Source: Thioalbus denitrificans (GTDB taxonomy: Bacteria > Pseudomonadota > Gammaproteobacteria > DSM-26407). Taken from it: DNA of 64,000 nt. Positions within the stretch are counted from its first letter, which is position 1; each line of letters begins with the position of its first letter. The notes under the pieces are model-generated. The model made no database searches and was not told where the DNA came from. It was given only the letters and a program-made list of their open reading frames with translations. Position numbers and translations under genes: made by a program. The stretch covers positions 80,265 to 144,264 of the forward strand of contig NZ_QPJY01000005.1 of NCBI RefSeq assembly GCF_003337735.1. The letters are read 5' to 3'. Below, piece after piece: positions 1,184 to 55,009 of the stretch.

Positions 1184-1200
1184 GTGCTCCTCCGGTTGTC

Positions 1201-1903: not shown

Positions 1904-2683
1904 ATGGACGACAAGGCATTGATCGCCCACGTGGGGGCGGGTGGCAAGGTGGGCGCCGAAGAGACGCTGCCGCCGGGGTACCGGGGCGAGCTGATGCGGC
2001 TCATGGTGGTGTTCGTGGACTCCGAGCTGGCCGGAGCCAGCGGCTTCGTGGGGCAGGTCAACCGGGGGCCGGGGCTCAAGGAGCGGATGGTGGCGGCGCG
2101 CATCGTCAGCGAGAAGTTCGGCCATGCCGAGCGGGTGCTGACGCTGCTGACCCCCTTCGGGGTCAATCCGCGGCTCTATGTCCGCTCCCACGCCTGGGAT
2201 GCCCGCCTGGACCGCGAGGCGGACCTGGGCGTGCGCCGCGTCGGCGGCGACAAGCGGTTGAACGTGTTCCACTATCCGCTGGAGGGGTGGAACGACGCGC
2301 TGGTCATGAACATGCTCATGGGCACCGCCTCCGCCGCCCAGCTGCGGGAGCTGCGGGAGTGCAGCTACGGGCCGCTCGCGGAGGCCATGGGCGCCATCGT
2401 TCCGCAGGAGTCCCGCCACGCCCAGCTGGGCGAGAACGGGCTGCGCGAGGCGCTGGAGCGCGGTACCTCGGTGAACGGCGTCCAGTCCCTGGTGGACTAC
2501 TGGTACCCGCGGGTGGCCGACACCTTCGGGCGCACCGATTCCGACCGCTTCGATCTCTACCGCCGCTACGGCCTGCGCCGCCACAGCAACGCCGGGCTGC
2601 TGGCGGCCTGGGAGGGGGAGATCGGGGACCGCCTGGGGCGGCTGGGGCTGACGGTGCCCGGCGACGCCGGGCCGGCCCAATAA
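1904..2683 (+). CDS. Orphan PaaA/PaaC-family protein with an altered di-iron site
   Basis: A 259-residue protein of the phenylacetate-CoA oxygenase PaaA/PaaC ferritin-like family. The start is ATG 1904, preceded by GGGAG at a usual distance; an upstream in-frame start at 1847 lacks a site. Aligned by eye to PaaA, most candidate di-iron ligands are present (Glu41 in VDSELAG, His74, Asp131 in GWND, Glu169 and His172 in QESRH), but the first ExxH motif reads K71-F-G-H74, with Glu70 displaced by one residue. The metal site may therefore be altered or lost, as in the non-catalytic PaaC subunit. It is shorter than PaaA (about 310). It sits between the flavodoxin and paaF, alone, without paaB/C/D/E next to it. 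It could be a divergent oxygenase, a structural subunit or a scaffold; the role is unknown. Confidence 0.75.
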   Translation: MDDKALIAHVGAGGKVGAEETLPPGYRGELMRLMVVFVDSELAGASGFVGQVNRGPGLKERMVAARIVSEKFGHAERVLTLLTPFGVNPRLYVRSHAWDARLDREADLGVRRVGGDKRLNVFHYPLEGWNDALVMNMLMGTASAAQLRELRECSYGPLAEAMGAIVPQESRHAQLGENGLREALERGTSVNGVQSLVDYWYPRVADTFGRTDSDRFDLYRRYGLRRHSNAGLLAAWEGEIGDRLGRLGLTVPGDAGPAQ

Positions 2684-2792: not shown

Positions 2793-3587
2793 ATGAGTGA
2801 CGAAGGCGAAAACCGCTTCGAGGACATCCACGTCGGCCCTCCCGAGGCGGGGGTGCTGGAGGTGACGCTGGCGCGGCCCGAGGTGCGCAACGCCCTGCGC
2901 ACCCGGACGCTGGCGGAGCTGGCGGCCGTGCTGGAAGCGGCGGCGGCCGATGACGCCGTCCGGGTGGTGCTGATCGGGGGCGACGAGCGGGCCTTCGCCG
3001 CGGGGGCGGACGTGCGGGAGATGGCGGCCCTGGATGCAGTCGGCGCGCTGCTCGACGAGCGTCCCCGTCACTGGAAGGCCATCCGCGAGTTCCCCAAGCC
3101 GCTGGTGGCGGCGGTGCGCGGCTACGCGCTGGGCGGCGGCTGCGAGCTGATGATGCACGCCGACATCGTCGTGGCGGGGGCGGGGGCGCGGCTGGGCCAG
3201 CCGGAGATCAACCTCGGCGTCATCCCGGGCGCCGGCGGCACCCAGCGCCTGACCCGGGCGGTGGGCAAGGCGCTGGCGATGAAGCTGGTGCTGGGCGGCG
3301 AGATGCTGGGCGCCGCGGAGGCGCAGGCGGCGGGGCTGGTGAGCGAGGTGGTGGCCGACGCCGAGGTGCCGGAACGGGCCCGCGCGCTGGCGCGGAAGGT
3401 GGCGGAGAAGTCGCCGCTGGCGCTGCGGCTGGCCAAGGAGGCGGTGCTGGCGGCCTGGGAGACGCCGCTCTCCACCGGGCTCGACCTGGAGCGGCGGGCG
3501 TTCTGCCTGCTGGCGGCCAGCGACGACCGGCGCGAGGGCATCGCGGCCTTCCTGGAGAAGCGCGCTCCCGCGTTCAGCGGCCGCTGA
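2793..3587 (+). CDS. paaF: PaaF, 2,3-dehydroadipyl-CoA hydratase (enoyl-CoA hydratase)
   Basis: Crotonase-fold protein of 264 residues. The oxyanion-hole signature AFAAGADVREM, the GYALGGGCELMMHADI core and the glutamate-bearing GQPEINLGVIPGAGGTQR segment are all intact, so it should be an active enoyl-CoA hydratase. In the paa pathway PaaF hydrates 2,3-dehydroadipyl-CoA to 3-hydroxyadipyl-CoA. The chosen start is the ATG at 2793; an in-frame GTG at 2733 would add 20 residues that are not crotonase-like. It is 52 nt upstream of paaG and heads the F-G-H-I-J-K series. The assignment of F versus G rests on order and on the canonical hydratase glutamates here. Confidence 0.9.
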   Translation: MSDEGENRFEDIHVGPPEAGVLEVTLARPEVRNALRTRTLAELAAVLEAAAADDAVRVVLIGGDERAFAAGADVREMAALDAVGALLDERPRHWKAIREFPKPLVAAVRGYALGGGCELMMHADIVVAGAGARLGQPEINLGVIPGAGGTQRLTRAVGKALAMKLVLGGEMLGAAEAQAAGLVSEVVADAEVPERARALARKVAEKSPLALRLAKEAVLAAWETPLSTGLDLERRAFCLLAASDDRREGIAAFLEKRAPAFSGR

Positions 3588-3639
3588 ACCCGCCCCGCCC
3601 ACACCATCAAACACAAACGAACGGACAGCCGGACACACC

Positions 3640-4431
3640 ATGGACTACGAAACCATCGACTACGCCGTTGCCGGGGGGGTGGCGCGCATCACCCTCAACC
3701 GGCCGGAGCGGCTCAACAGCTTCAACACCCGCATGCACGAGGAGTTGCGCGACGCCCTGGCGGCGGTGCGCGCGGACGACTCGGTGCGGGTGCTGCTCAT
3801 CACCGGCGCCGGGCGCGGCTTCTGCGCCGGCCAGGACCTCTCCGACCGGGCCGTGGCGCCCGGGTCGGAGGCGCCGGACCTGGGCGCGTCCATCGAGCGC
3901 AACTACAACCCCCTCATCCGCGGCCTGCGCGACCTGGAGCTGCCGGTGGTGTGCGCGGTGAACGGGGTGGCGGCGGGCGCCGGCGCCAACCTGGCGCTGG
4001 CCTGCGACCTGGTGCTGGCGGCGCGTTCGGCGAGCTTCATCCAGGCCTTCTGCCGGATCGGCCTGATCCCCGACTCAGGCGGCACCTGGTTCCTGCCGCG
4101 GCGGGTGGGGGCGGCGCGGGCGGCGGGCCTGGCGCTGCTGGGCGACAAGCTGAGCGCCGAGCAGGCGGAGTCCTGGGGGCTCATCTGGCGCTGCGTGGAT
4201 GACGCGGCGCTGGAGAGCGAGACGGAGGCGCTGTGCGGCCACCTGGCGCAGCAGCCCACCCGGGGCCTGGCCCTCGTCAAGCGGGCCCTGCAGGCATCCT
4301 GGTCCAACGACCTGGACGCCCAGCTCGATCTCGAGCGGGATCTGCAGCGGGAGGCGGGCGGCACGGCCGACTACCGCGAGGGGGTCGCGGCCTTCCTGGA
4401 GAAGCGCCCGCCGCGCTTCGCGGGGCGCTGA
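3640..4431 (+). CDS. paaG: PaaG, 1,2-epoxyphenylacetyl-CoA isomerase
   Basis: Crotonase-fold protein of 263 residues. It carries the PaaG-type hallmark GFCAGQDLSDR, then VNGVAAGAGANLALACDLV and FCRIGLIPDSGGTWFLPR, where the usual second hydratase glutamate is replaced by Asp (PDSGG), as in PaaG isomerases. The enzyme converts the ring epoxide of phenylacetyl-CoA to the oxepin-CoA and later isomerises a double bond in the opened chain. It starts at the ATG 52 nt after paaF and its TGA lies one base before the paaH start codon, so F, G and H read as one operon. Confidence 0.92.
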   Translation: MDYETIDYAVAGGVARITLNRPERLNSFNTRMHEELRDALAAVRADDSVRVLLITGAGRGFCAGQDLSDRAVAPGSEAPDLGASIERNYNPLIRGLRDLELPVVCAVNGVAAGAGANLALACDLVLAARSASFIQAFCRIGLIPDSGGTWFLPRRVGAARAAGLALLGDKLSAEQAESWGLIWRCVDDAALESETEALCGHLAQQPTRGLALVKRALQASWSNDLDAQLDLERDLQREAGGTADYREGVAAFLEKRPPRFAGR

Positions 4432-4432
4432 G

Positions 4433-5974
4433 ATGGCGATCCCGACCGGAGCACTGCCGCCGGAGGCGGTCATCGGGGTGGCGGGGGCCGGCACCATGGG
4501 CGCGGGCATCGCCCAGGTGGCGGCTGCGGCTGGCCACCCGGTGCGGCTGTTCGACGCCCGCGAGGGGGCCGCGGAGGAGGGCATCGACCGCCTGCGCCGG
4601 GGGCTGGATCGCCAGGTGGCGCGGGGGAGGATGACGGCGGATGACCGCGACGCCCTGCTCGGGCGCATCACCGCCGTGGGCCGCCTGGAGCTGCTGGCGC
4701 CCTGCGCGCTGGTGGTGGAGGCCATCGTCGAGGACCTGGAGGTCAAGCGCGGGCTGCTGCGGGAGCTGGAGGGTATCTGCGCGGCGGAGACGATTCTCGC
4801 CAGCAACACCTCCTCGCTCTCCATCACCGCGCTGGCCGCCGGGCTCGACCACCCGGAGCGGGTGGTGGGGATGCACTTCTTCAACCCGGTGCCGGTGATG
4901 CGGCTGGTGGAGGTGGTGCGGGGGCTGGCAACCGATCCCGCCGCGGCCGGGTGCGTGCGCGCCACCGCCGCGGGCTGGGGCAAGGACGCGGTGGCGGTGA
5001 AATCCACGCCCGGCTTCATCGTCAACCGGGTGGCGCGGCCCTTCTACGCCGAGGCGCTGCGGGTGCTGGAGGAGGGCGGCGGCGCGCCGGAGACCCTCGA
5101 CGCCCTGCTGCGCGAGGCCGGCGGCTTCCGCATGGGCCCCTTCGAGCTGATGGATCTCATCGGCCACGACGTCAATTTCGCGGTGACCGGCTCGGTCTAT
5201 GCCGCCTACTACCAGGATCCGCGCTTCCTGCCCTCGCTGATCCAGCAGGAGCTGGTGGCCGGCGGCTTCCTGGGCCGTAAGAGCGGGCGCGGGTTCTACG
5301 ACTACGCCGAGGGGGCGGTGCGGCCGGAGCCGGCCACCCTGGCGCCGGGGCCGCGCCCGGAGAGCGTCACCGTGCACGGCGACCCCGGCCCGGCGGCGGG
5401 CCTGGTACAGCGGCTGGAGTCCGCCGGCCTGCGGCTGCGGCGCACCGGGTCGGCCGGCGCCGGCTGGCTGGAGGTGGACGGCGTGGCCGTGGCGCTCACC
5501 GACGGGCGCATGGCCACCCAGCGGGCGGTCGCCGAGGGTCGCCCGGCCCTGGTGCTGTTCGACCTGGCGCTGGACTACGGCCGGGCCACGCGCATCGGCA
5601 TCGCGACCGCGGACCAGGCCGACCCGGCGGCGCAGGCGCGGGCGGCCGGGCTGTTCCAGGCGGCGGGGCTCGCGGTGAGCGGGCTGGACGACGTGCCCGG
5701 GCTCATCGTGGCGCGTACGGTGGCGATGCTGGCCAACGAGGCGGCGGACACGGTGAACCAGGGGGTGGCGGACGCCGCGGGTGTGGACGCGGCCATGGGC
5801 GGCGGGGTCAACTATCCCCGCGGCCCGCTGGCGTGGTGCGACGCCCTGGGCGCGGACTGGGTGGTGCGGGTGCTGGAGCACCTGGGGGCCACCTACGGAC
5901 TGGATCGCTACCGGGTCTCGCCGCTGCTGCGGCGCAAGGTCTGGAGCAGGGGGAGCTTTCATGGACAACAGTGA
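4433..5974 (+). CDS. paaH: PaaH, 3-hydroxyadipyl-CoA dehydrogenase
   Basis: A 513-residue NAD-dependent 3-hydroxyacyl-CoA dehydrogenase. The N-terminal Rossmann motif is GVAGAGTMGAGIAQ, followed by SNTSSLSIT and HFFNPVPVM, which contains the catalytic histidine, then the FIVNRVARP hinge and a duplicated C-terminal helical domain (FELMDLIGHDVN and a second copy ending in NYPRGPLAWCDALG). PaaH-type enzymes oxidise 3-hydroxyadipyl-CoA to 3-oxoadipyl-CoA. The start ATG at 4433 falls one base after the paaG stop; the open frame continues upstream only as a shadow inside paaG. The final 14 bases overlap paaI, so translation is likely coupled. Confidence 0.92.
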   Translation: MAIPTGALPPEAVIGVAGAGTMGAGIAQVAAAAGHPVRLFDAREGAAEEGIDRLRRGLDRQVARGRMTADDRDALLGRITAVGRLELLAPCALVVEAIVEDLEVKRGLLRELEGICAAETILASNTSSLSITALAAGLDHPERVVGMHFFNPVPVMRLVEVVRGLATDPAAAGCVRATAAGWGKDAVAVKSTPGFIVNRVARPFYAEALRVLEEGGGAPETLDALLREAGGFRMGPFELMDLIGHDVNFAVTGSVYAAYYQDPRFLPSLIQQELVAGGFLGRKSGRGFYDYAEGAVRPEPATLAPGPRPESVTVHGDPGPAAGLVQRLESAGLRLRRTGSAGAGWLEVDGVAVALTDGRMATQRAVAEGRPALVLFDLALDYGRATRIGIATADQADPAAQARAAGLFQAAGLAVSGLDDVPGLIVARTVAMLANEAADTVNQGVADAAGVDAAMGGGVNYPRGPLAWCDALGADWVVRVLEHLGATYGLDRYRVSPLLRRKVWSRGSFHGQQ

Positions 5975-6440
5975 GATCAGGGAGCAGCACGACGCCCAGC
6001 AGCTGGCCGAGGCGTGCCGGGAGGCGATGTACCGCGACGACTACACCGCCCAGGCCATGGGAATCAGCATCGAGCGGGTGGGGCCGGGCTACGCCCTGGG
6101 CCGGATGGAGGTGCGCAAGGACATGGTGAACAGCCACCGCATCTGCCATGGCGGCATGACCTTCGCCCTGGCCGACACCCTGTTCGCCTACGCCTGCAAC
6201 GCCTACAACCGGGCCACCGTCGCCTCCGGCTGCAGCATCGAGTACCTGGCCCCGGCGTTCCTGGGCGACATCCTCACCGCCGAGGCGGTGGAGCGCTCCC
6301 TCAGCGGCCGCACCGGGGTCTACGACATCACCGTCTCGCGCCAGAACGGCGAGGTGGTGGCCCTGTTCCGGGGCAAGTCCTACCGCATCCGCGGCGAGGT
6401 GATCGGCGCCGCGACCGCGCCGGAAACGATGGCGGACTGA
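5961..6440 (+). CDS. paaI: PaaI, hotdog-fold acyl-CoA thioesterase
   Basis: A 159-residue hotdog-fold protein. The segment NSHRICHGGMTFALADTLFA is the PaaI signature, with the active-site aspartate in ALADT. PaaI hydrolyses CoA esters of aromatic or dead-end intermediates and is thought to free CoA when the pathway stalls. The ATG at 5961 lies inside the last codons of paaH, a 14-base overlap. About 150 nt separate it from paaJ, with no clear terminator between. Confidence 0.92.
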   Translation: MDNSEIREQHDAQQLAEACREAMYRDDYTAQAMGISIERVGPGYALGRMEVRKDMVNSHRICHGGMTFALADTLFAYACNAYNRATVASGCSIEYLAPAFLGDILTAEAVERSLSGRTGVYDITVSRQNGEVVALFRGKSYRIRGEVIGAATAPETMAD

Positions 6441-6588
6441 ATATGGCCGGGCGTTGTCGGCCACAGGGGGCGCAGGGGATGGGTGTGGCGGACCGCCCGG
6501 GCCGGGCGGCGCATCACCGTGCCCCGTCAGCACGGTCTGAACAGGCATGACGATGGCCGGCGGGAAACCCGGCCCGAGGACAGGAGCG

Positions 6589-7794
<1,206 letters not shown>

Positions 7795-7860
7795 AAAGGA
7801 CCGTTTAGCCGCATAGCCACGAAAATGATGCCGAAAAGATATGACCAAGGGGGAAGCGCC

Positions 7861-9177
7861 GTGAAACTCGATGCGCCACTGCGGGGAGATCTCGACCCGA
7901 TTGAAACCGCCAGCCGCGACGAGCTGGTCGCGCTGCAGATCGAGCGGCTGCGCTGGTCGCTCAACCACGCCTACCAGAACGTGGCCCACTACCGGCGCAA
8001 GTTCGACGCGGCGGGCGTCCACCCCCACGACCTGAATGAGCTGGCGGACCTGGCGAAGTTTCCCTTCACCACCAAGCAGGACCTGCGCGAGAACTATCCC
8101 TTCGGGATGTTCGCCGTGCCCATGAGCGAGGTGGTGCGCGTGCACGCCTCCTCGGGCACCACCGGCAAGCCCACCGTGGTGGGCTACACCCAGGGCGACA
8201 TCGACATGTGGGCGGACATGATGGCGCGCTCCATCCGCGCCGCCGGCGGCCACCGCAACGACAAGGTGCACGTCTCCTACGGCTACGGCCTGTTCACCGG
8301 CGGCCTGGGGGCCCATTACGGCGCCGAGCGCCTGGGCTGCACCGTGATTCCCATGTCCGGCGGCCAGACCGAGAAGCAGGTGCAGCTGATCCAGGACTTC
8401 GAGCCGGACATCATCATGGTCACCCCCTCCTACATGCTCAACATCGCCGACGAGTTCGAGCGCCAGGGCATCGACCCGCGCAACTGCTCGCTGCGCATCG
8501 GCATCTTCGGCGCCGAGCCCTGGACCGACTCCATGCGCCTGGAAATCGAGGAGCGGTTCGGCATCGACGCCATCGACATCTACGGCCTGTCGGAGGTGAT
8601 CGGCCCCGGCGTGGCCAACGAGTGCATCGAGACCAAGGACGGGCCCCACATCTGGGAGGACCACTTCTTCCCCGAGATCATCAATCCCGAGACCGGTGAG
8701 GTGGTGCCCGAGGGCGAGGAGGGCGAGCTGGTCTTCACCTCGCTCACCAAGGAGGCGATGCCGGTCATCCGCTACCGCACCCGGGACATCACCCGGCTGC
8801 TGCCCGGCTCCGCGCGCACCATGCGCCGCATGGGCAAGATCACCGGCCGCTCCGACGACATGCTCATCATCCGCGGCGTCAACGTCTTCCCGAGCCAGAT
8901 CGAGGAGCAGATCCTGCGGGTGGCGGGTCTCTCGCCCCACTACGTGCTGGAGGTCTACCGCGAGCGGCACCTGGACAGCATCGACGTGCTGGTGGAGATG
9001 CGCGCCGAGCAGTCCGGCGCCTCCGAGGCCACCAAGTCCCAGGCGGCGAAGGAGCTGCAGCACCACATCAAGTCCTACATCGGCATCACCACCAACGTGC
9101 GGGTGGTGGAGACGGGCGCCATCGAACGCTCCCAGGGCAAGGCCAGGCGCGTCATCGACAAGCGGCCGAAGTCCTGA
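7861..9177 (+). CDS. paaK: PaaK, phenylacetate-CoA ligase
   Basis: A 438-residue AMP-forming ligase of the PaaK subfamily. The phosphate loop is ASSGTTGKPTVVGYT (about residues 97-111), IYGLSEVIGPGV is the adenine-binding region and YRTRDITRLL holds the ribose-binding aspartate. The C-terminal domain ends with the conserved SQGKARRVIDKR. It activates phenylacetate to phenylacetyl-CoA, the entry step of the pathway, in the cytosol. The GTG at 7861 is chosen because GGGGGAA lies at the right distance and the resulting length matches the family; an ATG at 7825 has no comparable site. A strong terminator follows the stop. Confidence 0.93.
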   Translation: MKLDAPLRGDLDPIETASRDELVALQIERLRWSLNHAYQNVAHYRRKFDAAGVHPHDLNELADLAKFPFTTKQDLRENYPFGMFAVPMSEVVRVHASSGTTGKPTVVGYTQGDIDMWADMMARSIRAAGGHRNDKVHVSYGYGLFTGGLGAHYGAERLGCTVIPMSGGQTEKQVQLIQDFEPDIIMVTPSYMLNIADEFERQGIDPRNCSLRIGIFGAEPWTDSMRLEIEERFGIDAIDIYGLSEVIGPGVANECIETKDGPHIWEDHFFPEIINPETGEVVPEGEEGELVFTSLTKEAMPVIRYRTRDITRLLPGSARTMRRMGKITGRSDDMLIIRGVNVFPSQIEEQILRVAGLSPHYVLEVYRERHLDSIDVLVEMRAEQSGASEATKSQAAKELQHHIKSYIGITTNVRVVETGAIERSQGKARRVIDKRPKS

Positions 9178-22486: not shown

Positions 22487-22490
22487 CGCG

Positions 22491-45856: not shown

Positions 45857-47182
45857 TCAGATGCCGAGGTAGGCTTCCTTGATCTTCTCGTTCTCGAGCA
45901 GGGCGCGGCCGGTGTCGGAGAGCACGATGTTGCCGGTCTCGATGACGTAGCCGCGGTCGGCGATGGCGAGCGCCGCGTTGGCGTTCTGCTCCACCAGGAA
46001 GATGGTCATGCCCTGGCGCTTGAGCTCGGAGACCGCGTTGAGGATCTCCTCCACCAGCAGCGGCGCCAGCCCCATGCTCGGTTCGTCGAGCAGCAGCAGG
46101 CGCGGCTTGCGCATCAGCGCCCTGGCCATGGCCAGCATCTGCTGCTGGCCGCCGGAGAGGGTGCCGGCGGCTTCCCGGCGCTTCTGGCGCAGGATCGGGA
46201 ACATCTCGTACATGCGGTCGAGATCCTCCCAGGCGGCGTCGCGGTCGCGCTTGTAGGCGCCCAGCAGCAGGTTGTCCTCCACCGACATGGGGCCGAACAC
46301 CTGCCGGCCCTCGGGCACCTGGCTGATGCCCATCAGCGTGCGCCGCTCGGCCGGGACCCGGGTGATGTCCTCGCCGTGGAAGCGGATGGTGCCGGCGCTG
46401 GCGGGGCGGATGCCCGAGAGGGTCATCAGCAGGGTGGTCTTGCCGGCGCCGTTGCCGCCCACCAGCGCCACCAGCTCCCCCTCGCGCACTTCGAGATCGA
46501 TGCCGTGCAGCGCCTGGATGCGTCCGTAGTGGGTGGTGAGGCCGCGGATCTCCAGCACCGGCGCGGTGACGGCCGCGGGGGCCGGGCGGGCGGACTCCGC
46601 GGCGTGGCGCAGCCCGAGGCCGAAGGGCTCGGGCAGGATGTTGACGATCTGCTTGTGCAGGGCCCGGAACTCCGCCTGCACCGACTCGCCGAACAGCGGG
46701 TCGCTGTTCTCTGAGAAGGCCGCGTCGATGACCCGCCAGTCCTCGTCGGTGAGGTGCTCCTCGGCCAGCGGCAGGACCCGCGTCTCCTCCTTCTGGCAGT
46801 GCTCGCGGGCCGCCTCTATGTAGCGTCCCAGGGCGTCGACGAAGGGGGCCCGCCCCGCGGCCGGATCGCGCTCGAAGGTCTCCAGCAGGTGGCCCAGCCG
46901 GCGCATGGACTCGGGCTCGCGGGCATGCTCGCGCTGCAGCTCGTCGAGGATCGCTTCCGCCTCCGGCGCCCGCCGGCGCAGGGCGCGGAACAGGAACGCG
47001 TCCTCCTTGGGGTGGTGGAAGCGGTTGGTGTAGGTGTCGATGTAGTGGAAGATGGACCGGAACAGCACCACGTCGGGCGGTGCGCTGCTCTCCGCCACCT
47101 CGCGGCGGAGCTGGTCCAGGGCGGAGACGAGCACGTCCAGACTGCGGTGCTCGGCGCGGATGATGTGTAGCGCTTCGGTCAT
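45857..47182 (-). CDS. livF: Haemerythrin-LivF fusion: ABC importer ATPase with O2/iron-binding domain
   Basis: A 441-residue single frame. Residues 1-185 are a haemerythrin HHE domain with His12, His46, His56, Glu60, His86, His128 and Glu132 in the expected order. A Pro/Ala linker (198-208) leads to a complete LivF-type ATPase: Walker A VGGNGAGKTT (241-250), signature LSGGQQQML, Walker B RLLLLDEPSMGL and the switch His in the FLVEQN block context. It powers the Liv-type importer with LivG. The added domain could let oxygen, iron or nitric oxide control uptake; that is inference. It lies 27 nt after livG and is the last gene of the importer operon. No frame break marks the joint, so this is a true fusion. 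Confidence 0.88.
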   Translation of the reverse strand: MTEALHIIRAEHRSLDVLVSALDQLRREVAESSAPPDVVLFRSIFHYIDTYTNRFHHPKEDAFLFRALRRRAPEAEAILDELQREHAREPESMRRLGHLLETFERDPAAGRAPFVDALGRYIEAAREHCQKEETRVLPLAEEHLTDEDWRVIDAAFSENSDPLFGESVQAEFRALHKQIVNILPEPFGLGLRHAAESARPAPAAVTAPVLEIRGLTTHYGRIQALHGIDLEVREGELVALVGGNGAGKTTLLMTLSGIRPASAGTIRFHGEDITRVPAERRTLMGISQVPEGRQVFGPMSVEDNLLLGAYKRDRDAAWEDLDRMYEMFPILRQKRREAAGTLSGGQQQMLAMARALMRKPRLLLLDEPSMGLAPLLVEEILNAVSELKRQGMTIFLVEQNANAALAIADRGYVIETGNIVLSDTGRALLENEKIKEAYLGI

Positions 47183-47209
47183 GGTCGGTTGCAGCCGTGT
47201 GGGATGCTC

Positions 47210-47965
47210 TCAGCCGCCCAGGTAGGCGGCGATGACGTCCGGGTTGTTGCGGATCTCCTCCGCGGTGCCCTCGGCCAGCTTCTTGCCGTAGTCGAGCACC
47301 AGGATGTGATCGGAGATGCCCATCACCAGCTTCATGTCGTGCTCCACCAGCATGATGGTCATGCCGGTGGAGGCGACCTTCTGGATCAGCTGGTCGATCT
47401 GCGCGGTCTCCCGCGGATTGAGCCCGGCGGCCGGCTCGTCGAGCAGCAGCAGGCGCGGCTCGGCCGCCAGCGCGCGGGCGATCTCCAGGCGCTTGAGCGC
47501 GCCGTAGGGCATGGAGTCGGCGTCGGCGTCCAGGTAGCTCTCCAGGCCCACGAAGGCCATCAGCTCGGCGGCCTTGTCGCGGCAGGCGCGATCGCCGCGG
47601 ACGATGCCGGGCAGGCGCAGCATGGCGGGGAGGAAACGGCTGTCGAGGTGCAGGTGGCGCCCCATCATCACGTTCTCCAGGGCCGACATGTTCTGGCAGA
47701 TCTGGAGATTCTGGAAGGTGCGGCTCACCCCGAGGCGCGCCAGGCGGAAGGGGGCGATGGCGGAGATGTCGCGCTCCTCCAGCAGGATCCGCCCCACCGT
47801 GGGCGTGTAGACTCCGGTGATGAGGTTGAACAGGGTGGTCTTGCCGGCCCCGTTGGGACCGATTACCGAGTGGATGGTGCCTTCCCGGATGCCGAAGCTG
47901 AGGTCCTTGATGGCGTGGATGCCGCCGAAGACCTTGCTCAGACCCTCGATGCGCAGCAGGCTCAT
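47210..47965 (-). CDS. livG: LivG-type ABC transporter ATP-binding protein
   Basis: A 251-residue ATPase. Walker A is IGPNGAGKTTLFN, the signature is MPYGALKRLEIARAL (degenerate, as usual in LivG), Walker B is RLLLLDEPAAGLNP and the switch region is MLVEHDMKLV. It partners with the LivF fusion on the cytosolic face of the importer. The ATG at 47965 overlaps the livM stop (ATGA). Neighbouring aromatic-catabolic genes suggest the cargo is an aromatic acid rather than a branched-chain amino acid. Confidence 0.92.
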   Translation of the reverse strand: MSLLRIEGLSKVFGGIHAIKDLSFGIREGTIHSVIGPNGAGKTTLFNLITGVYTPTVGRILLEERDISAIAPFRLARLGVSRTFQNLQICQNMSALENVMMGRHLHLDSRFLPAMLRLPGIVRGDRACRDKAAELMAFVGLESYLDADADSMPYGALKRLEIARALAAEPRLLLLDEPAAGLNPRETAQIDQLIQKVASTGMTIMLVEHDMKLVMGISDHILVLDYGKKLAEGTAEEIRNNPDVIAAYLGG

Positions 47966-48900
47966 GAGCGGGCCCTCCGCAGGCGCAGCAGGGTGGGCAG
48001 CAGGCCCTTGGGCATGAAGATCATGGTGACCATGAGGATGGCGCCGAAGATCATCATCTCGTAGTCCTCGAACCCGGCCAGCAGCTGTGGCAGCAGGGTG
48101 AGGATCAGCGCGCCCAGGATGGCGCCGAAGGTGGAGGCCATGCCGCCCAGCACCACCATGGTGACCAGCTCGATGGAGCGGAAGAAGCCCGATTCGCCGG
48201 GGGTGATGAAGCCGGCGTAGTGGGCCGCCAGGCTGCCGGCGATGCTGGCGATGATGGCCGAGACCACGAAGATCAGCACCTTGTAGTGGCTGGTGTTCAT
48301 GCCCGAGACCTGGGCCGCCACCTCCGAGCCGTGCACCCCGCGCAGGGCCCGTCCAACGGGCGAGTCGATGATGTTCAGCGCCAGCCAGGTCACCAGCACC
48401 AGCAGGCCGCCGAACACCCAGTACCAGCTCTTCTCCCCGTACAGGTTCCAGCCGAACAGGGTGAAGGCGGGGACCACCATCCCGTCGGGTCCGCCGGTGA
48501 GGGCCGACTCGGTGTTGAGCACGATGGAGATGATGATGCCGAAGCCCAGCGTGGCCATGGCCAGGTAGTGGCCCTTGAGCCGGAGGATCGGCTGGCCGAT
48601 GAGGAAGGCCAGCAGGCCCACCCCGACCGCCCCGGCGCCGAGGGCCGCCAGCGGCGGCCAGCCGTGGCTGGCGGTGAGGATGGCGGAGGTGTAGGCCCCG
48701 AGGCCGAAGAAGGCGGCATGGCCGAGGCTGATCTGCCCGGCGTAGCCGATGAGCAGGTTCAGGCCCACCACCACCGCGGCGTTGATGATGATGTGGATGG
48801 CCACGTCATAGTGGTAGTTGTTCCGGAACGCCAGCGGCAGCAGGGCGATGACCAGCGCGAGCGCCAGCAGGCCGCCGGTACGGGGTGTCGTCAGCCCCAT
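47962..48900 (-). CDS. livM: LivM-type ABC transporter permease
   Basis: A 312-residue integral membrane permease with about ten helices. GLNLLIGYAGQISLGHAAFFGLGAYTSA is the family hallmark in the first third and LATLGFGIIIS-type AMATLGFGIIISIVLN follows. The start ATG 48900 is two bases after the livH stop. It forms the transmembrane channel with LivH. There is no fused ATPase domain at the C-terminus. Confidence 0.92.
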   Translation of the reverse strand: MGLTTPRTGGLLALALVIALLPLAFRNNYHYDVAIHIIINAAVVVGLNLLIGYAGQISLGHAAFFGLGAYTSAILTASHGWPPLAALGAGAVGVGLLAFLIGQPILRLKGHYLAMATLGFGIIISIVLNTESALTGGPDGMVVPAFTLFGWNLYGEKSWYWVFGGLLVLVTWLALNIIDSPVGRALRGVHGSEVAAQVSGMNTSHYKVLIFVVSAIIASIAGSLAAHYAGFITPGESGFFRSIELVTMVVLGGMASTFGAILGALILTLLPQLLAGFEDYEMMIFGAILMVTMIFMPKGLLPTLLRLRRARS

Positions 48901-48902
48901 GG

Positions 48903-49778
48903 TCAGACCCTCTCCGTGCCGCGCCCGCCCAGCAGTCCGCGGGGCAGGAAGAACAGGATGAGCAGCATGATGATGAAGGGCACCGCATCCTTGTAGTCGG
49001 AGGAGAGGTAGCCGGCGGTCATGGTCTCGGCGATGCCGAGGATGAGCCCGCCGATGATGGCGCCCACCCCGCTGCCGAGCCCGCCCAGCACCGCGGCGGC
49101 GAAGCCCTTCAGCCCCAGCAGGATGCCCACGTCGTAGGAGGTGAGGCTGATGGGGGCGATGATGATGCCGGCGATGGCGCCGAGCATGGCCGAGAGGCCG
49201 AAGCTCATCAGCAGCACGAAACGGGTGTTGATGCCCACCAGCTGGGCGGCCACCTTGTTGTGGGAGGTGGCGAGGATGGCCCGTCCCAGCATGGTGCGGC
49301 TGAAGAAGTACCAGAGCACCGCCATGATCACCACGCTCACGCCGATGACCCACAGGCTCTGGGGCACGATGATTGCGCCGAGGATGTTGATGGGCTCCTC
49401 GCCGGAGAAGGCCTGCAGGGCGAAGAAGCCCTTGCCCCACAGCACCTGCGCCAGTCCGCGCAGGAACAGGGAGGCGCCGATGGTGATGATGATGAGGGTC
49501 ACCACCTCGGCATTGCCCGCGGGCTCCACGGCGAACTTCTCCAGCGCCATGCCCACCAGGCCGGTGGCGATGACCGCCAGCACGATGGCCAGCGGCAGCG
49601 GCAGGCCCGCCCCCACCAGGAACACGGTGGTCATGCCGCCGAGCATGATGAACTCGCCCTGGGCGAAGTTGATCACGTTGCTGGCGTTGAAAATGATGGA
49701 GAAACCGAGCCCCACCAGGGCGTAGGTGGTACCGAGGGTGATCCCGGTGAGGAGGAACTGCAGGAATTCAGAGAACAT
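48903..49778 (-). CDS. livH: LivH-type ABC transporter permease
   Basis: A 291-residue permease with about eight helices. GTTYALVGLGFSIIFNASNVINFAQGE is typical of LivH, as are GLKGFAAAVLGGLGSGVGAI and the C-terminal GLLGGRGTERV. ATG 49778 has GGAAA upstream; an ATG at 49796 is possible but less well supported. It is separated from livK by 194 nt that contain a strong stem-loop, after which expression may be lower than that of the binding protein. Confidence 0.92.
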   Translation of the reverse strand: MFSEFLQFLLTGITLGTTYALVGLGFSIIFNASNVINFAQGEFIMLGGMTTVFLVGAGLPLPLAIVLAVIATGLVGMALEKFAVEPAGNAEVVTLIIITIGASLFLRGLAQVLWGKGFFALQAFSGEEPINILGAIIVPQSLWVIGVSVVIMAVLWYFFSRTMLGRAILATSHNKVAAQLVGINTRFVLLMSFGLSAMLGAIAGIIIAPISLTSYDVGILLGLKGFAAAVLGGLGSGVGAIIGGLILGIAETMTAGYLSSDYKDAVPFIIMLLILFFLPRGLLGGRGTERV

Positions 49779-49925
49779 GGGAGTTTCCGCGGCCATCTGC
49801 AGGCTGGCCGGGTGGTCGGGGCGGGCGGGCGTCCGGGTGCGGAGCTCCGGTTGCGTTCACCCGCACCGGTGATCCACGGGCAGCGCGCCGCGGTCCCCCC
49901 TGGACCCGGGCAGTCTCTATACGGT

Positions 49926-49955
49926 GCCCGTCCCGCGCGGAGGCGCGGGACGGGC
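49926..49955 (-). terminator. Strong stem-loop between livK and livH
   Basis: GCCCGTCCCGCGC pairs perfectly with GCGCGGGACGGGC (13 bp) around GGAG, 17 nt after the livK stop. There is no T-run, so it is more likely a stabilising or attenuating hairpin that leaves the binding protein in excess of the permeases, as in other importer operons. Confidence 0.7.
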
Positions 49956-49972
49956 GACGCTGGGTGAAGGCC

Positions 49973-51136
49973 TTACTCGGCCAGGGCCCAGTTGCCGTTG
50001 CGCACTTCGAGCATGCGGAAGGCGGTGAGGTCCAGCCCCAGGTGATCCTCGGGCGACATGTTCACCACCCCGGCGGTGCCCATGAAGCCCCGGGTCTGCT
50101 CGATGGCGTCACGCACCTTGGCCTTGTCGGTGCTGCCGGCGCGCTTCATGGCGTCCACGGCGATCATCAGGCCGTCGTAGGCATGGCCGCCGAAGGTGGA
50201 GACATCGGAGCCGGTGGACTCCTCGTAGGTGGTCTTGTAGCCGACCACGACCGGCTTCTGGGGGTCGGAGTCCGGCAGGCTCTCGGCCACCAGCAGGGCC
50301 GCGGCGGGCAGGCGCACGCCCTCGGCGGCGCCGCCGGCCAGCTCCAGGTAGCTCTTGGAGGCCACGCCGTGGGACTGGTAGAGGGGCAGCTTGATGCCCA
50401 GCTGGGCGTAGTTCTTGGTGACGATGGCCGGACCCTGGCCGAAGTCGAAGTTCAGCACCGCCTCCACGCCCTCGGTGTTCTTGATCTTGGTGAGCTGGGT
50501 GGTCATGTCGGTGTCTTTCGGGCCGTAGGTCTCGTCGGCCACGATCTCGATGCCGTACTTGGGCGCCACCGCCAGGGACTGCTCGTGGCCGGACTTGCCG
50601 AAGCCGCCGGTGCCGGAGATGAGGGCCACCTTGGACAGTCCGCGCTTGCGCATGTCCTCGAAGATCTTCTCGGCGGCCATCTTGTCGGTATGGGGGGTCT
50701 TGAACACCCACTTCTTCACCGGGTCGATGATCACCACCGCGCCGGCCAGGGAGATGAAGGGGATCTCCGCCTGCTCGACCAGCGGTACGGCGGCCATGGT
50801 GGCGCCGGTGGTGCTGCCGCCGACGATGATGTCGACGCCGTCGGACTCGATGAGGCGCTTGACGAAGGTGCGGGCCTTCTGGGCATCGCCGCCGTCATCG
50901 TAGTGCACCAGCTCCAGCTGCTTGCCCAGGACGCCGCCCTCGGCATTGATGCGATCGATGTAGATCTGCAGGGTCTTGAGCTCGGGGTCGCCGAGGAAGG
51001 AGGCCGGCCCGGTGACCGAGAGGAAGGAGCCGACCTTGATGGTGTCGGCGGCCTGGACGGTACCGGCGGACAGCCCGAGGCTGGCGACGGCCAGGGTGGC
51101 GGCGGCCAGCCCCTTGCGCATGGTTTTATTGAACAT
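49973..51136 (-). CDS. livK: Periplasmic substrate-binding protein, Liv/HAAT family
   Basis: A 387-residue exported protein. Signal peptide MFNKTMRKGLAAATLAVASL and on, with cleavage near VQA-AD (residue 30). The mature part is a type I periplasmic binding fold: VGSFLSVTGPASFLG, GVDIIVGGSTTGATMA and VNFDFGQGPAIVTK-type blocks. The SVTGPASFLG loop is like that of binding proteins for aromatic or small organic acids as much as amino acids, so the ligand is not fixed. It heads the livKHMGF operon; GAGAG precedes ATG 51136. The terminator at 51253-51286 separates it from the PaaA-like unit upstream. Confidence 0.9.
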   Translation of the reverse strand: MFNKTMRKGLAAATLAVASLGLSAGTVQAADTIKVGSFLSVTGPASFLGDPELKTLQIYIDRINAEGGVLGKQLELVHYDDGGDAQKARTFVKRLIESDGVDIIVGGSTTGATMAAVPLVEQAEIPFISLAGAVVIIDPVKKWVFKTPHTDKMAAEKIFEDMRKRGLSKVALISGTGGFGKSGHEQSLAVAPKYGIEIVADETYGPKDTDMTTQLTKIKNTEGVEAVLNFDFGQGPAIVTKNYAQLGIKLPLYQSHGVASKSYLELAGGAAEGVRLPAAALLVAESLPDSDPQKPVVVGYKTTYEESTGSDVSTFGGHAYDGLMIAVDAMKRAGSTDKAKVRDAIEQTRGFMGTAGVVNMSPEDHLGLDLTAFRMLEVRNGNWALAE

Positions 51137-51252
51137 GACTCTCACTCTCCGATGATGTGCTTGGTGTTGTTGATATGGTTATATGGGTGCTTGTGATACC
51201 GGGTGATCTCGGCCACCCTTGCCGGCTGCAACATCTGCACCGGAAAACAATA

Positions 51253-51286
51253 ACAAAAATAGGGGCGGAGAACAGAGTCTCCGCCC
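51253..51286 (-). terminator. Rho-independent terminator after the PaaA-like unit
   Basis: On the minus strand, GGGCGGAGA pairs with TCTCCGCCC (9 bp, six-base loop, 51263-51286), then TATTTTTG follows. It begins five bases after the stop of the 126-residue gene and so ends the two-gene unit before livK. Confidence 0.85.
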
Positions 51287-51290: not shown

Positions 51291-51671
51291 TCACAACAGC
51301 GCCTCGACCTGCTCGCGGGCGCGGCCGAAGTCCTCGACGCTCTCCTCGTAGGCTTCGCGGGCGATGGAATAGCGCTCCACCGCCTCGGTGTCGATGTGGC
51401 CGTAGAGGCCGGCCTGGGCCTTGCGGCACTCCTCCCACAGGCGGTCGGCGATCAGCCGCCGGCGCATGTAGACGCGGGCAGCCTCCTGCTGGCTGGGGCG
51501 CAGTTCCTCGTAGGCGGGGACCGCGGGCCGGCCGAGGGTGGCGAAGTCGCTCTGCAGGAGCAGCCACATCTCCGCCCAGTTCTCCTCCCCGCCCAGGTTC
51601 GGCCGGTAGCCGAACCGGGCGAGCACGCTGGCTCCCGATTCCACCCGCTGATCGGGCGAGGGGACGATCAT
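51291..51671 (-). CDS. Small partner protein of the PaaA-like di-iron protein (unknown)
   Basis: A 126-residue soluble protein without a recognisable domain. It is helical and acidic, with GYRPNLGGEENWAEMWLLLQ, YMRRRLIADRLWEECRKAQ and a C-terminal coiled-coil-like stretch rich in Glu and Arg (EAYEESVEDFGRAREQVEAL). It contains no cysteine pairs for metal or iron-sulfur binding (a single Cys). It starts 12 nt after the stop of the PaaA-like gene, so the two are co-transcribed and may form a complex, much as small subunits do in other di-iron oxygenases. Function is not known; no PaaB similarity is evident. Confidence 0.75.
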   Translation of the reverse strand: MIVPSPDQRVESGASVLARFGYRPNLGGEENWAEMWLLLQSDFATLGRPAVPAYEELRPSQQEAARVYMRRRLIADRLWEECRKAQAGLYGHIDTEAVERYSIAREAYEESVEDFGRAREQVEALL

Positions 51672-51683
51672 GTCGCGCTCCTC

Positions 51684-52496
51684 CTACTGGGGCCTGACTT
51701 CGTTCACGGACTCCTCGTCCAGCGTGTAGCCCACGCGCATCTCGTAGTCGGGCTGCACGTCGGCGGGCAACTCGAAGCCGATCTCCGTGAGGCGCGATTC
51801 GAGCAGTTCCAGGTACTCGGACTGAAGTTCTTCAGGACGCTTGGTCTTGAGCCCGTATTCGTAATACTTGTCGAACATCGCGGACTTGTTGCCGCCGGCG
51901 GACGGCCGGCCGTAGAACCCCAGCCCGATGCGCATGAATTTCGGGATCCGCGCCTGCATGAACTCGCGGGTCTTCTCGCCACCGAACTCGATACAGCGCT
52001 TGGAGGCCCAGACGCCGAAGGCGAGGTGGCCGTGCTCCTCCTTGTGGATGCGGACGTTGACCCGCGCCCAGGGCAGGTAGGAGCAGTCGCGGTACTGGCC
52101 CAGGAAGGCCACCGCCGCCGGGGTGACCACCGTGGAAAACAGGGCCACGTCCTCCCAGCACTCGAACCAGGTGGACCAGTTTTCCTTGCGGAACCCGTTG
52201 ATTACATTGACCTTGCTTCGATCCGGGTCGTCCGGGTGCCGGCACAGCTCCTGGAGCCTGGCATCCACGTCGACACCCAGGTCGCGCATCAGGTTCCAGA
52301 CGTAGTAGCCGTGGCCCATCTCCTCCATCACCTTCTTGGAGAGCCGGTAGGCCTCCTCGGGGCGGGGGGCGAAGCGGAGGTTTTCGGCGACCCGCTGGCC
52401 GCCGGCATATTCGGAATCGGCCTGGAAGGACATCAGGTTCAGCAGCGCCTGCTTGTAGTCCTCGGGCAGGATGTCGCCCTTGTCGTAAGTCTTCAT
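51684..52496 (-). CDS. PaaA-type di-iron oxygenase-like protein
   Basis: A 270-residue ferritin-like protein of the phenylacetate-CoA oxygenase PaaA/PaaC family. All six candidate di-iron ligands align with PaaA: Glu29 (ADSEYAG), Glu59 and His62 (EEMGHG), Asp116 (CWEDVA), Glu154 and His157 (EEHGH). It is therefore probably an active O2-activating enzyme rather than a PaaC-type structural subunit. It is divergent from paaX and followed by a small unknown gene and by the Liv importer, without paaB, C, D or E. The substrate may be a CoA-activated aromatic acid; phenylacetyl-CoA or a hydroxylated relative is plausible but unproven. Electrons might come from the FprA-like reductase next to paaX. 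Confidence 0.82.
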   Translation of the reverse strand: MKTYDKGDILPEDYKQALLNLMSFQADSEYAGGQRVAENLRFAPRPEEAYRLSKKVMEEMGHGYYVWNLMRDLGVDVDARLQELCRHPDDPDRSKVNVINGFRKENWSTWFECWEDVALFSTVVTPAAVAFLGQYRDCSYLPWARVNVRIHKEEHGHLAFGVWASKRCIEFGGEKTREFMQARIPKFMRIGLGFYGRPSAGGNKSAMFDKYYEYGLKTKRPEELQSEYLELLESRLTEIGFELPADVQPDYEMRVGYTLDEESVNEVRPQ

Positions 52497-52583
52497 CTCT
52501 TAGCCTCCGCAGCGTATTTGTGTTCCTGGCGCGGCGCGCCTCCATCGGGTTCTTAAAGCGACACAAAAAAGGTCGTTAAAGAA

Positions 52584-52593
52584 ACACTAGTGT
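52584..52593. promoter_or_regulatory. Palindrome in the paaX/PaaA-like divergent region
   Basis: ACACTAGTGT is a perfect ten-base palindrome in an AT-rich stretch, 87 nt from the PaaA-like start and 107 nt from the paaX start. It is a candidate PaaX operator controlling both units. It does not clearly match the published E. coli PaaX site, so the call rests on position and symmetry. Confidence 0.4.
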
Positions 52594-52700
52594 ATCAATA
52601 TTTTGCTGTCAACCGATTTTTGTGGCAGTCTCTGGGGGCGGTTCGAGCACCGGCCCGGGTGGCCGGGAATGCCCCGGCACGAGGAGGAAGGGATCGGGAT

Positions 52701-53651
52701 ATGACCAGAAGAAAAAGCCATCCCCAGGCGGAGGCGCTGGTGGAGTCGTTTCGCAGCAAGCGGCCCATCCGCGCCGGTTCGCTCATCATCACCGTCTATG
52801 GCGATGCCATCGCCCCGCACGGCGGCACCGTGTGGCTGGGCAGCCTGATCCGGCTGCTGGAGCCGCTGGGGCTGAGCCAGCGGCTGGTGCGCACCTCGGT
52901 GTTCCGCCTGGCCCGCGAGAGCTGGCTGGGCGCCGAGCAGATCGGCAGGCGCAGCTACTACAGCCTGACCGGCACCGGCCGGGCACGGATCGAGAGCGTG
53001 CACCGCCGCATCTATGCCCCCGTGCAGAGCGAGTGGGACGGCGGCTGGCACCTGATCATGCTGATTACCGACGACATCGGTCCCGAGGAGCGGCGCGCCG
53101 TGGGACGGGAGCTGGCCTGGCAGGGTTTCGGCATGATTGCCACCGGTGTCTTCGCTCATCCCTCGGCGGACATGGATGCCGCGCGCAAGGTCCTGGAGGA
53201 TCTCGGGATCATCGACAAGGCGGTGATACTGGCGGCCAGCTGCGAGCCGGGCGGGAGGGGCCGACCGCTGCGCTCGCTCATCGGCAACTGCTGGAACCTG
53301 GACGAGCTGGCCGATGAGTACCGCGAGTTCCTGGATCGCTTCCGTCCCGTGTGGCGGGAGCTCAACGGCGTCCGGCAGCTCGATCCTGAGGAGTGTTTTC
53401 TGATACGCACGCTCCTCATCCATGACTTTCGCCGTGTTCTTTTGCGCGATCCCCAGCTGCCGGCCCAGCTGCTCCCGGCGGACTGGGCGGGGACGGCGGC
53501 CAGGCTGCTGTGCCGTAACCTGTACCGCCTCGTCGAGGGACCCGCCGAGGCCCACCTGATGGCGACGCTGGAGACCGCGGACGGACCGCTGCCCGAGGCG
53601 TCGCCCTATTACTACCAGCGCTTCGGCGGGCTCGAATCCGCGCCGGCATGA
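52701..53651 (+). CDS. paaX: PaaX, phenylacetyl-CoA-responsive repressor
   Basis: A 316-residue GntR-like/PaaX-family regulator of the usual length. The N-terminal winged helix is RAGSLIITVYGDAIAPHGGTVW with LGLSQRLVRTSVFRLARES; the middle has WDGGWHLIMLI and the C-terminus LLIHDFRRVLLRDPQLP and LCRNLYRLVEGPAEAHL, all hallmark PaaX blocks. In known systems it represses paa genes until phenylacetyl-CoA binds. Here it is divergent from the PaaA-like gene, not from the paaF-K cluster 43 kb away. GGAGG lies somewhat far upstream of ATG 52701. Its stop overlaps the first possible start of the following reductase gene. Confidence 0.92.
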   Translation: MTRRKSHPQAEALVESFRSKRPIRAGSLIITVYGDAIAPHGGTVWLGSLIRLLEPLGLSQRLVRTSVFRLARESWLGAEQIGRRSYYSLTGTGRARIESVHRRIYAPVQSEWDGGWHLIMLITDDIGPEERRAVGRELAWQGFGMIATGVFAHPSADMDAARKVLEDLGIIDKAVILAASCEPGGRGRPLRSLIGNCWNLDELADEYREFLDRFRPVWRELNGVRQLDPEECFLIRTLLIHDFRRVLLRDPQLPAQLLPADWAGTAARLLCRNLYRLVEGPAEAHLMATLETADGPLPEASPYYYQRFGGLESAPA

Positions 53652-53674
53652 ACGAGGACGCAGGAGTGAGTTCC

Positions 53675-55009
53675 ATGCACAAGTCGGTGGCCGTGGTCGG
53701 TGCGGGGCCCGCGGGCCTGTACCTGGCGGAAGTCCTGGCCAAGAGGCTGGCCGGCGCCCAGGTGGACGTCATCGAGCGTCTGCCGACGCCCTTCGGCCTG
53801 GTCCGCGGCGGTGTCGCACCCGATCACCAGGGCACCAAGAACATCGTGCGCCAGTTCGAGCGGACCCTGCAGCGGGACAACGTCCGCTTCCACGGCAACG
53901 TGGAGGTGGGGCGGGATGTGGGCTACGAGGAGCTGAGGCAGGCCTACGATGCGGTGGTGTTCGCCACCGGCGCGCTGCAGGACCGCCGGCTCGGGATCCC
54001 GGGCGAGGCGCTGCCCGGCGTGTACGGTTCCGGAGCCTTCGTGGGCTGGTACAACGGGCTGCCCGATTTTCGCGATCTCGCCCCGGAGCTGCCGGGCGGC
54101 GCGGTGGCCATCATCGGCAACGGCAACGTGGCGCTGGACCTGGCGCGCATCCTGGCCAAGAGCGAGGCGGAGCTGGCGAGCTCCGATCTCTGTGCCCACG
54201 CCCGGGCGGTGCTGTTCTCCGCCCGGTTGACCGACATCTACCTCATCGGCCGGCGCGGCCCGCTCGAGGCCACCTTCACGCCCGAGTCCCTGGCCGAGCT
54301 GGGCGCCCTCGGCCGCGCGGTGCCCCTGGTGGATTCCACCCGGATTCCGGCCGCCGCCGAGGGTCTGGAGCCGAAGGAGCAGAAGATCAAGGAGCAGAAT
54401 CTCGAGCTGCTGCGCGGGTTCGCGGCCAACCGGCCGGAGCTGAAACCGCTGCGGATTCACCTGTTGTTCCAGGCCGCCCCGGTGGGTGTGCTCGGCACGG
54501 AACGGGTCGAGGGGTTGCGGCTGGAGCATACCCGGCTGGAGGGCGGGCGGGCCGAACCCACCGGCGAGACATTCGAACTGCCCGTGTCCACGGTGATCAC
54601 GGCCATCGGCTACCGGAGTGCGGCGATTCCCGGCCTGCCTTTCGATGAGCGGCGGGGGCGGGTGGCCAACGCCGGGGGGCGGGTGGAGCCGGGGGTCTAT
54701 GCCACCGGCTGGTGCCGGCGCGGTCCGCAGGGGGTCATCCCGGCGAACCGCACCGACGCCCTGGGCGTGGCGGAGCTGGTGCTGGAGGACCTGGCCGAAC
54801 GGCCCGCGGGGAACAGGCCCGGCCGGCCGGCGCTCGAGCGGCTGCTGGCGGAACGGGGAGCGGAGCCGGTCTCCTTCGCGGACTGGCAGGCGATCAATGG
54901 GGCGGAGTCCGGCCGCGCGGAGGCGGGCCGGCCGCGGGAGAAGTTCACCCGGGTGGAGGAGATGCTCGCCCTTCTCGGCCGCGAAAGGACCGCGGCGCGG
55001 ACCGGGTGA
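53675..55009 (+). CDS. FprA/adrenodoxin-reductase-type ferredoxin-NADP+ reductase
   Basis: A 444-residue FAD enzyme. FAD site VVGAGPAGLYLAEVLAK, PTPFGLVRGGVAPDH, NADP site IIGNGNVALDLARIL, and the C-terminal VYATGWCRRGPQGVIPANR are those of adrenodoxin reductase and mycobacterial FprA. It moves electrons from NADPH to a ferredoxin. ATG 53675 is favoured because AGGAG lies eight bases upstream; the ATG at 53648 overlaps the paaX stop but has no site. Co-transcription with paaX suggests it feeds the nearby PaaA-type oxygenase via a ferredoxin or flavodoxin not present here; this is inference. Confidence 0.87.
   Translation: MHKSVAVVGAGPAGLYLAEVLAKRLAGAQVDVIERLPTPFGLVRGGVAPDHQGTKNIVRQFERTLQRDNVRFHGNVEVGRDVGYEELRQAYDAVVFATGALQDRRLGIPGEALPGVYGSGAFVGWYNGLPDFRDLAPELPGGAVAIIGNGNVALDLARILAKSEAELASSDLCAHARAVLFSARLTDIYLIGRRGPLEATFTPESLAELGALGRAVPLVDSTRIPAAAEGLEPKEQKIKEQNLELLRGFAANRPELKPLRIHLLFQAAPVGVLGTERVEGLRLEHTRLEGGRAEPTGETFELPVSTVITAIGYRSAAIPGLPFDERRGRVANAGGRVEPGVYATGWCRRGPQGVIPANRTDALGVAELVLEDLAERPAGNRPGRPALERLLAERGAEPVSFADWQAINGAESGRAEAGRPREKFTRVEEMLALLGRERTAARTG

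Follow-up and report, generated by a model that had tools for sequence, protein, structure and literature searches.

A 64-kb stretch of the Thioalbus denitrificans genome, here called the window, contains at positions 51291–55009 a four-gene locus encoding a divergent PaaA-family protein (PaaA2), a 126-residue protein (U126), the regulator PaaX and an FprA-type reductase. Judged from sequence, PaaA2–U126 together with FprA and a flavodoxin is probably an alternative PaaX-controlled phenylacetyl-CoA epoxidase that replaces PaaABC(D)E. The U126 and PaaA2 genes lie on the minus strand, separated by 12 bp, and paaX and fprA on the plus strand, with the fprA start overlapping the paaX stop by 4 bp; all four open reading frames (ORFs) are intact and show codon bias of the coding type. 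An earlier note on this DNA had described an intact PaaA-type gene with a 126-residue partner of no known family, divergent from paaX and a linked FprA-type reductase gene, and this description was confirmed: PaaA2 matches PF05138 at 81.2 bits (curated cut-off 28.5), for U126 neither Pfam nor NCBIfam has a matching family, PaaX exceeds the TIGR02277 equivalog cut-off (320.5 versus 264.6 bits), and FprA scores 339.5 bits to 1cjc and 303.5 to M. tuberculosis FprA (1lqt) over about 430 residues. The paaX ORF opens at 52590, the TIGR02277 match begins at residue 64 of this long ORF and a GGAGGAA resembling a ribosome-binding site lies upstream of the ATG at 52701, which is the probable true start. 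The hairpin behind U126 has a stem of 9 pairs (7 G-C) and a T-rich tail, and is weak evidence by itself, as one such hairpin was found in the scanned region where 1.2 are expected.

The same window holds, at 1–9177, a phenylacetate gene cluster with a flavodoxin (Fld) and a second PaaA-like protein (PaaA1), none of which figured in the earlier note. The hybrid-pathway set PaaK, PaaG, PaaH, PaaJ and PaaN matches NCBIfam equivalogs above cut-off, with PaaN, which is cut by the window edge, scored on a full-length copy from the same genus (TIGR02288, 900.6 bits versus a cut-off of 579); PaaY follows past PaaN, just beyond the edge. In this genome, which is 99.7% complete, PF05138 finds only PaaA1 and PaaA2, neither of them canonical, and thus no canonical PaaA or PaaC; PaaB is absent by PF06243, and nothing exceeds the PaaE cut-off of TIGR02160 (best 133 versus 420.8 bits). 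The best TIGR02160 match, at 19569–20843, is a generic flavohemoprotein-like reductase and was rejected as PaaE. The lack of PaaB, PaaC and PaaE, noted before for the neighbourhood, thus extends to the whole genome (PaaD was not searched for separately), and the idea of a canonical epoxidase encoded outside the window was discarded, as the same searches found none. Since the pathway genes are present and PaaA, PaaB, PaaC and PaaE are not, the pathway lacks an epoxidase and needs to be provided with one, and the PaaA2 system is the probable epoxidase of the full phenylacetate pathway in this window.

PaaA2 is a PaaA relative, yet not a canonical PaaA. It stays below the cut-off of the PaaA equivalog TIGR02156 (75.8 versus 280 bits) and forms a separate clade (support 99); the tree has a single clade for each of PaaA1, PaaA2, canonical PaaA and PaaC (Shimodaira–Hasegawa-like approximate likelihood ratio test 99–100), joined by long branches that are uncertain. 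Its AlphaFold2 model (predicted local distance difference test, pLDDT, 85.7) matches E. coli PaaA (4ii4) best, with Z 24.8 over 239 residues, followed by SSO1313, PaaC and BoxB. Among the matches listed in a plasmid search with PaaA2, only PaaA-type proteins appeared, at 24–28% identity, and the plasmid search with U126 found nothing.

A scan of 84,980 species genomes recovered 48 PaaA2 loci at 60–96% identity in alpha-, beta- and gammaproteobacteria. The pairing of PaaA2 with U126 is near-obligate, as 46 of the 48 genomes encode a U126 homologue, adjacent or nearby in 44 and elsewhere in the genome in 2; in Tsuneonella it is kept though unlinked, about 25 kb from PaaA2, and both genomes without it are metagenome-assembled, one contig ending inside PaaA2. 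Within the fetched stretches, fprA accompanies 42 and paaX 39 of the loci. Of 151 sampled genomes belonging to one family, five encode PaaA2, and these are also the only ones with U126 (p about 1.6e-9). The co-occurrence in other genomes that the earlier note had proposed looking for was thus borne out. U126 itself is predicted to be all-helical (AlphaFold2 model, pLDDT 83; helices 6–19, 32–43, 59–87 and 95–125), and when this model was compared with the PDB by Foldseek and VIA-align, nothing beyond generic helical similarity emerged (lowest E 0.28), with no convincing match. Neither the profile searches nor the all-helical model points to a PaaB/MmoB-like small subunit, for which an alpha/beta fold would be expected; U126 may be a partner subunit physically bound to PaaA2.

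The electron carrier seems to be encoded at the other end of the window. The earlier note had suggested a ferredoxin reductase of another type, to be tried with a ferredoxin or flavodoxin; the likely immediate donor of PaaA2 is not a ferredoxin but Fld, a dedicated flavodoxin 50 kb from the PaaA2 locus and divergent from PaaA1. Its closest solved relatives are the 2m6r flavodoxin, mioC and cindoxin, and the FMN phosphate loop GT(E)SGNA is kept in 36 Fld homologues. Fld adjoins PaaA1 in PaaA2-type genomes, where loci fetched around PaaA1 show it together with PaaN or PaaY and paa genes, and it is also found in PaaA2 loci lacking PaaA1; in canonical paa loci, no flavodoxin was detected beside PaaA1.

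Both loci are likely controlled by PaaX, since they share candidate operators and paaX is itself divergent. Across the 64 kb, the dyad TGATAC-N27-GTRTC is matched exactly just twice, once in each divergent promoter (a one-mismatch site also occurs at 1746–1783), and its spacing equals that of the E. coli PaaX site TGATTC-N27-GAATCA (PMC9493321). Across genomes, the dyad (N27–N29, at most one mismatch) lies upstream of PaaA2 in 36 of 48 cases (0.26 expected from shuffles) and, again with at most one mismatch, upstream of flavodoxin-type PaaA1 in 23 of 28 (0.2 expected), in contrast to none of 28 PaaA1 genes in canonical paa operons. That the dyads are mere promoter –10 elements is possible for one half-site, but the fixed spacing of 27–29 bp at two promoters argues against it; a strict sigma-70 promoter scan found none. 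PaaX control as proposed earlier is thus strengthened. A stand-alone four-gene system was rejected, since the window also holds the flavodoxin, PaaA1 and pathway genes, which share the operator. For the simplified oxygenase with a reductase of another type that the earlier note had suggested, the near-obligate gene co-occurrence, the absence of PaaA, PaaB, PaaC and PaaE and the shared operator give the core good comparative support; its free-standing nature and full ligand set did not survive.

Several observations weigh against this interpretation, first of all in the metal centre. In E. coli PaaA, iron is bound by Glu42, Glu72, His75, Asp126, Glu155 and His158 (PMC4498308). All six ligands had been credited to PaaA2, but by alignment only five are kept (Glu29, Glu59, His62, Glu154 and His157), together with Lys55, which corresponds to Lys68 of PaaA. 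The Asp126 position is taken by Thr125, an invariant threonine in all 48 family members, and each of the 48 sequences has valine in place of Glu49, a residue of the lysine bridge in PaaA. The centre may therefore differ from a PaaA-type site or lack the activity of one, and with threonine at the Asp126 position, a mode of action identical to that of PaaA should not be taken for granted. Taken to its extreme, this would mean that PaaA2 is no oxygenase at all but a protein with a broken di-iron site and a structural, protective or epoxide-removing role, with epoxidation left to an unrelated oxygenase. We regard this as very improbable: none of the 48 sequences departs from the remaining five ligands or from Lys68, mean column identity within the family is 80%, and a reductase and a flavodoxin accompany PaaA2, whereas PaaC, which did lose the site, has lost Glu42, Glu72 and Glu155 and, in nearly all copies, also His75.

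The further contrary points concern distribution and substrate. Forty of the 48 carriers, T. denitrificans included, lack canonical PaaA/C and PaaB, with independent profiles agreeing on the eight exceptions, but many carriers are metagenome-assembled, where gene absences are softer; isolates among those without PaaA/B/C are Terasakiella, Roseospira, Marinobacterium arenosum, Phenylobacterium and Tsuneonella. The eight exceptions possess canonical PaaABC as well. In the family of 151 genomes, 35 have canonical PaaA, five have PaaA2 and none has both, an exclusion that is not significant alone because only about 1.2 overlaps are expected. Moreover, a sister clade of seven genomes at about 60% identity, including Phenylobacterium, Tsuneonella and Cupriavidus, mostly retains U126, flavodoxin, FprA and PaaX. 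In at least one of its loci (L087), the phenylacetate genes give way to an epoxide-hydrolase-like protein (EHN), LigB and a Rieske oxygenase near PaaA2, along with CoA ligases and an acyl-CoA dehydrogenase; an epoxide-hydrolase-like protein is also near PaaA2 at L089, so that at least two of these genomes have one. This gene context means that the substrate of the PaaA2 family is not fixed. The system might thus oxygenate another aryl-acyl-CoA, e.g. hydroxyphenylacetyl-CoA or phenylpropanoyl-CoA, and merely be co-regulated with phenylacetate genes, as could be argued from the eight PaaABC-containing carriers and from the different aromatic cluster of the sister clade. This would, however, leave the PaaK–PaaG–PaaN pathway without an epoxidase here and probably in most of the 40 PaaABC-less carriers, so that we consider it improbable. 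As an observation in its own right, the sister-clade loci (L087 and L089 and their relatives L088, L090 and L092) point to an unassigned aromatic acyl-CoA pathway around PaaA2.

The role of PaaA1 also has to be weighed. In this protein, whose best sequence match is SSO1313 (4mud), Lys stands at the Glu72 position and Gly at that of Asp126. Ordinary paaABCDE operons of Rhizobium, Microvirga, Paracoccus and others carry PaaA1 directly behind paaE; no flavodoxin or PaaA2 was detected at these loci, and U126 is absent from those genomes. In the main clade, 39 of 41 PaaA2 genomes encode PaaA1, but all seven sister-clade genomes lack it and keep PaaA2. PaaA1 as the epoxidase itself is unlikely, with two ligands lost and complete PaaABCDE alongside it elsewhere. 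The epoxidase could instead be a hetero-complex of PaaA2 and PaaA1, analogous to PaaA with PaaC, plus U126, flavodoxin and FprA; the frequency of PaaA1 in the main clade and the operator common to both loci would fit, as would the loss of the Glu72 and Asp126 ligands in a structural subunit. We nevertheless find this rather unlikely, because the sister clade dispenses with PaaA1 while retaining PaaA2, mostly with its other companions, and because PaaA1 stands beside complete PaaABCDE where PaaC already exists. From these two contrasts, canonical operons on the one hand and the sister clade on the other, PaaA2, U126, flavodoxin and FprA appear to travel together, with PaaA1 separable and probably accessory.

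Independently of this, alphaproteobacterial paaABCDE operons regularly include PaaA1 as a third PF05138 protein (loci L097–L128, e.g. L098:9920-10690 and L102:13556-14380), where its ligand positions are conserved but altered; we know of no assigned function for it there. Matches to PaaA1 in Rhodocyclales were flagged as having a TGA inside, which looked like read-through past the match ends.

For the alternative epoxidase, we infer catalysis, metal content, substrate and direction of electron flow as follows. PaaK would form phenylacetyl-CoA, which would free PaaX from the TGATAC-N27-GTRTC operators at both divergent promoters. Electrons would then pass from NADPH via FprA and flavodoxin to a metal centre inside PaaA2, whose four-helix bundle would be held by U126, and there O2 would epoxidize the ring of phenylacetyl-CoA. 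PaaG would isomerize the epoxide, and PaaN, PaaF, PaaH and PaaJ would complete the pathway.

Compared to the PaaABC(D)E 1,2-phenylacetyl-CoA epoxidase, the PaaA2 system shares the predicted PaaA fold, the PaaK/G/N/H/J context, probable regulation by PaaX, and Lys68 along with five of the six ligands, but it lacks PaaB, PaaC and PaaE, has threonine for Asp126 and the new helical U126, and would use flavodoxin and FprA in place of the FAD/[2Fe-2S] reductase PaaE. For a flavodoxin feeding an oxygenase, cindoxin, the partner of P450cin, is a precedent; together with MioC it belongs to the same short-chain flavodoxin family as Fld, although its partner is a P450 and not a PaaA-type di-iron protein. 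The archaeal PaaA-like SSO1313 is likewise a divergent PF05138 protein (Z 22.1 to PaaA2), but keeps the aspartate in an ‘LVDGA’ motif and has no known U126 or flavodoxin partner. The benzoyl-CoA epoxidase BoxAB has a PaaA-related di-iron fold (Z about 19 between PaaA2 and BoxB) and also does without a PaaC-type subunit, but BoxB has about 475 residues and neither U126 nor a flavodoxin is part of the system; BoxA, the reductase, carries FAD and two [4Fe-4S] clusters (PMC4498308).

We see an even chance that PaaA2–U126 represents a new class of aryl-acyl-CoA oxygenase, i.e. a minimal enzyme of two proteins, derived from PaaA, with five ligands at its metal centre and a dedicated flavodoxin and FprA to drive it, which replaced PaaABCDE in many proteobacterial lineages and, in Phenylobacterium and related bacteria, came to serve a second aromatic pathway. 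In the literature covered, which does not extend to preprints and most subscription journals, we found no description of a flavodoxin-driven alternative phenylacetyl-CoA epoxidase.

Table 1. Genes and sequence elements of the T. denitrificans window, beginning with the four-gene locus.
Feature	Position	Strand	Remarks
U126	51291..51671	-	126 aa; partner protein, predicted all-helical
PaaA2	51684..52496	-	270 aa; PF05138; divergent PaaA-family ferritin-like protein, proposed oxygenase subunit
PaaX regulator	52701..53651	+	TIGR02277 320.5 bits
FprA, adrenodoxin-reductase/FprA-type NADPH reductase	53648..55009	+	similarity to 1cjc, 1lqt
Terminator-like hairpin	51263..51286	-	directly 3' of U126, closes PaaA2–U126 pair
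Candidate PaaX operator TGATAC-N27-GTGTC	52560..52597		between PaaA2 and paaX; exact match
Candidate PaaX operator TGATAC-N27-GTATC	1806..1843		between Fld and PaaA1; exact match
Fld, short-chain MioC/cindoxin-like flavodoxin	1201..1650	-	PF00258 100.4 bits
PaaA1, second divergent PF05138 protein	1904..2683	+	84.4 bits, cut-off 28.5
PaaN, semialdehyde dehydrogenase	1..1170	-	runs off window edge
PaaF-like enoyl-CoA hydratase	2793..3587	+	NF007239 346 bits, just below cut-off 371
PaaG, 1,2-epoxyphenylacetyl-CoA isomerase	3640..4431	+	TIGR02280 431.5 bits, cut-off 345
PaaH, 3-hydroxyacyl-CoA dehydrogenase	4433..5974	+	TIGR02279 683 bits, cut-off 669
PaaI thioesterase	5961..6440	+	TIGR02286 159.6 bits, cut-off 119
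PaaJ/PcaF thiolase	6547..7794	+	TIGR02430 733.6 bits, cut-off 597
PaaK phenylacetate-CoA ligase	7825..9177	+	TIGR02155 743.6 bits, cut-off 646
LivJHMGF-type ABC transporter	45857..51145	-	adjoins U126

Other genes also deserve mention. A gene with the domain of unknown function DUF2889 (PF11136), present as a single copy in the T. denitrificans genome (G000:C2:779633), recurs with this system across several lineages: it adjoins FprA in loci L051, L052, L053, L066, L068, L070, L073 and L095, is next to Fld in L086 and L091 and lies near PaaY in L161 and L162; its product is a possible further component of the PaaA2 system. The transporter beside U126 could possibly take up aromatic acids; LivJ homologues (at least 45% identity) occur in 15 of the 48 loci, with LivH/M/F alongside in about a dozen. 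By these Liv genes, 45857–47182 encodes a hemerythrin-HHE domain fused N-terminally to a LivG-type ABC ATPase, with a similar full-length match in L053. Two PF05138 matches in long frames of 583–669 residues (G773:C75:1660-2313 and G766:C275:17471-18130) are possible fusions or merely long frames. Finally, 20981–27200 carries HMG-CoA reductase beside a prenyltransferase-like protein, a PPDK/PEP-utilizing protein and DUF3419, a set unusual in a proteobacterium.

About 16% of the bacterial genomes sequenced encode the phenylacetate pathway (PMC9493321), whose committed, O2-using step is the epoxidation of phenylacetyl-CoA. The paaABCD genes have been described as always occurring together (PMC2653477), and PaaA and PaaC have been proposed as robust pathway markers in a 2026 survey, which also lists ‘partial’ (PaaA–PaaC only) and ‘other’ configurations and in which, as far as its text could be searched, flavodoxin and ferredoxin were not found and no U126 or FprA is described (PMC13186573). 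If our interpretation is correct, this step would have a second enzyme, built in another way, and surveys relying on PaaA/PaaC markers would miss or misread dozens of degraders. The PaaA fold would then be workable without PaaB, PaaC and PaaE, and the PaaA2 family would offer a natural test of the roles of the sixth ligand, the lysine bridge and the type of reductase, while U126, so far an unannotated family, gains a concrete and testable role.

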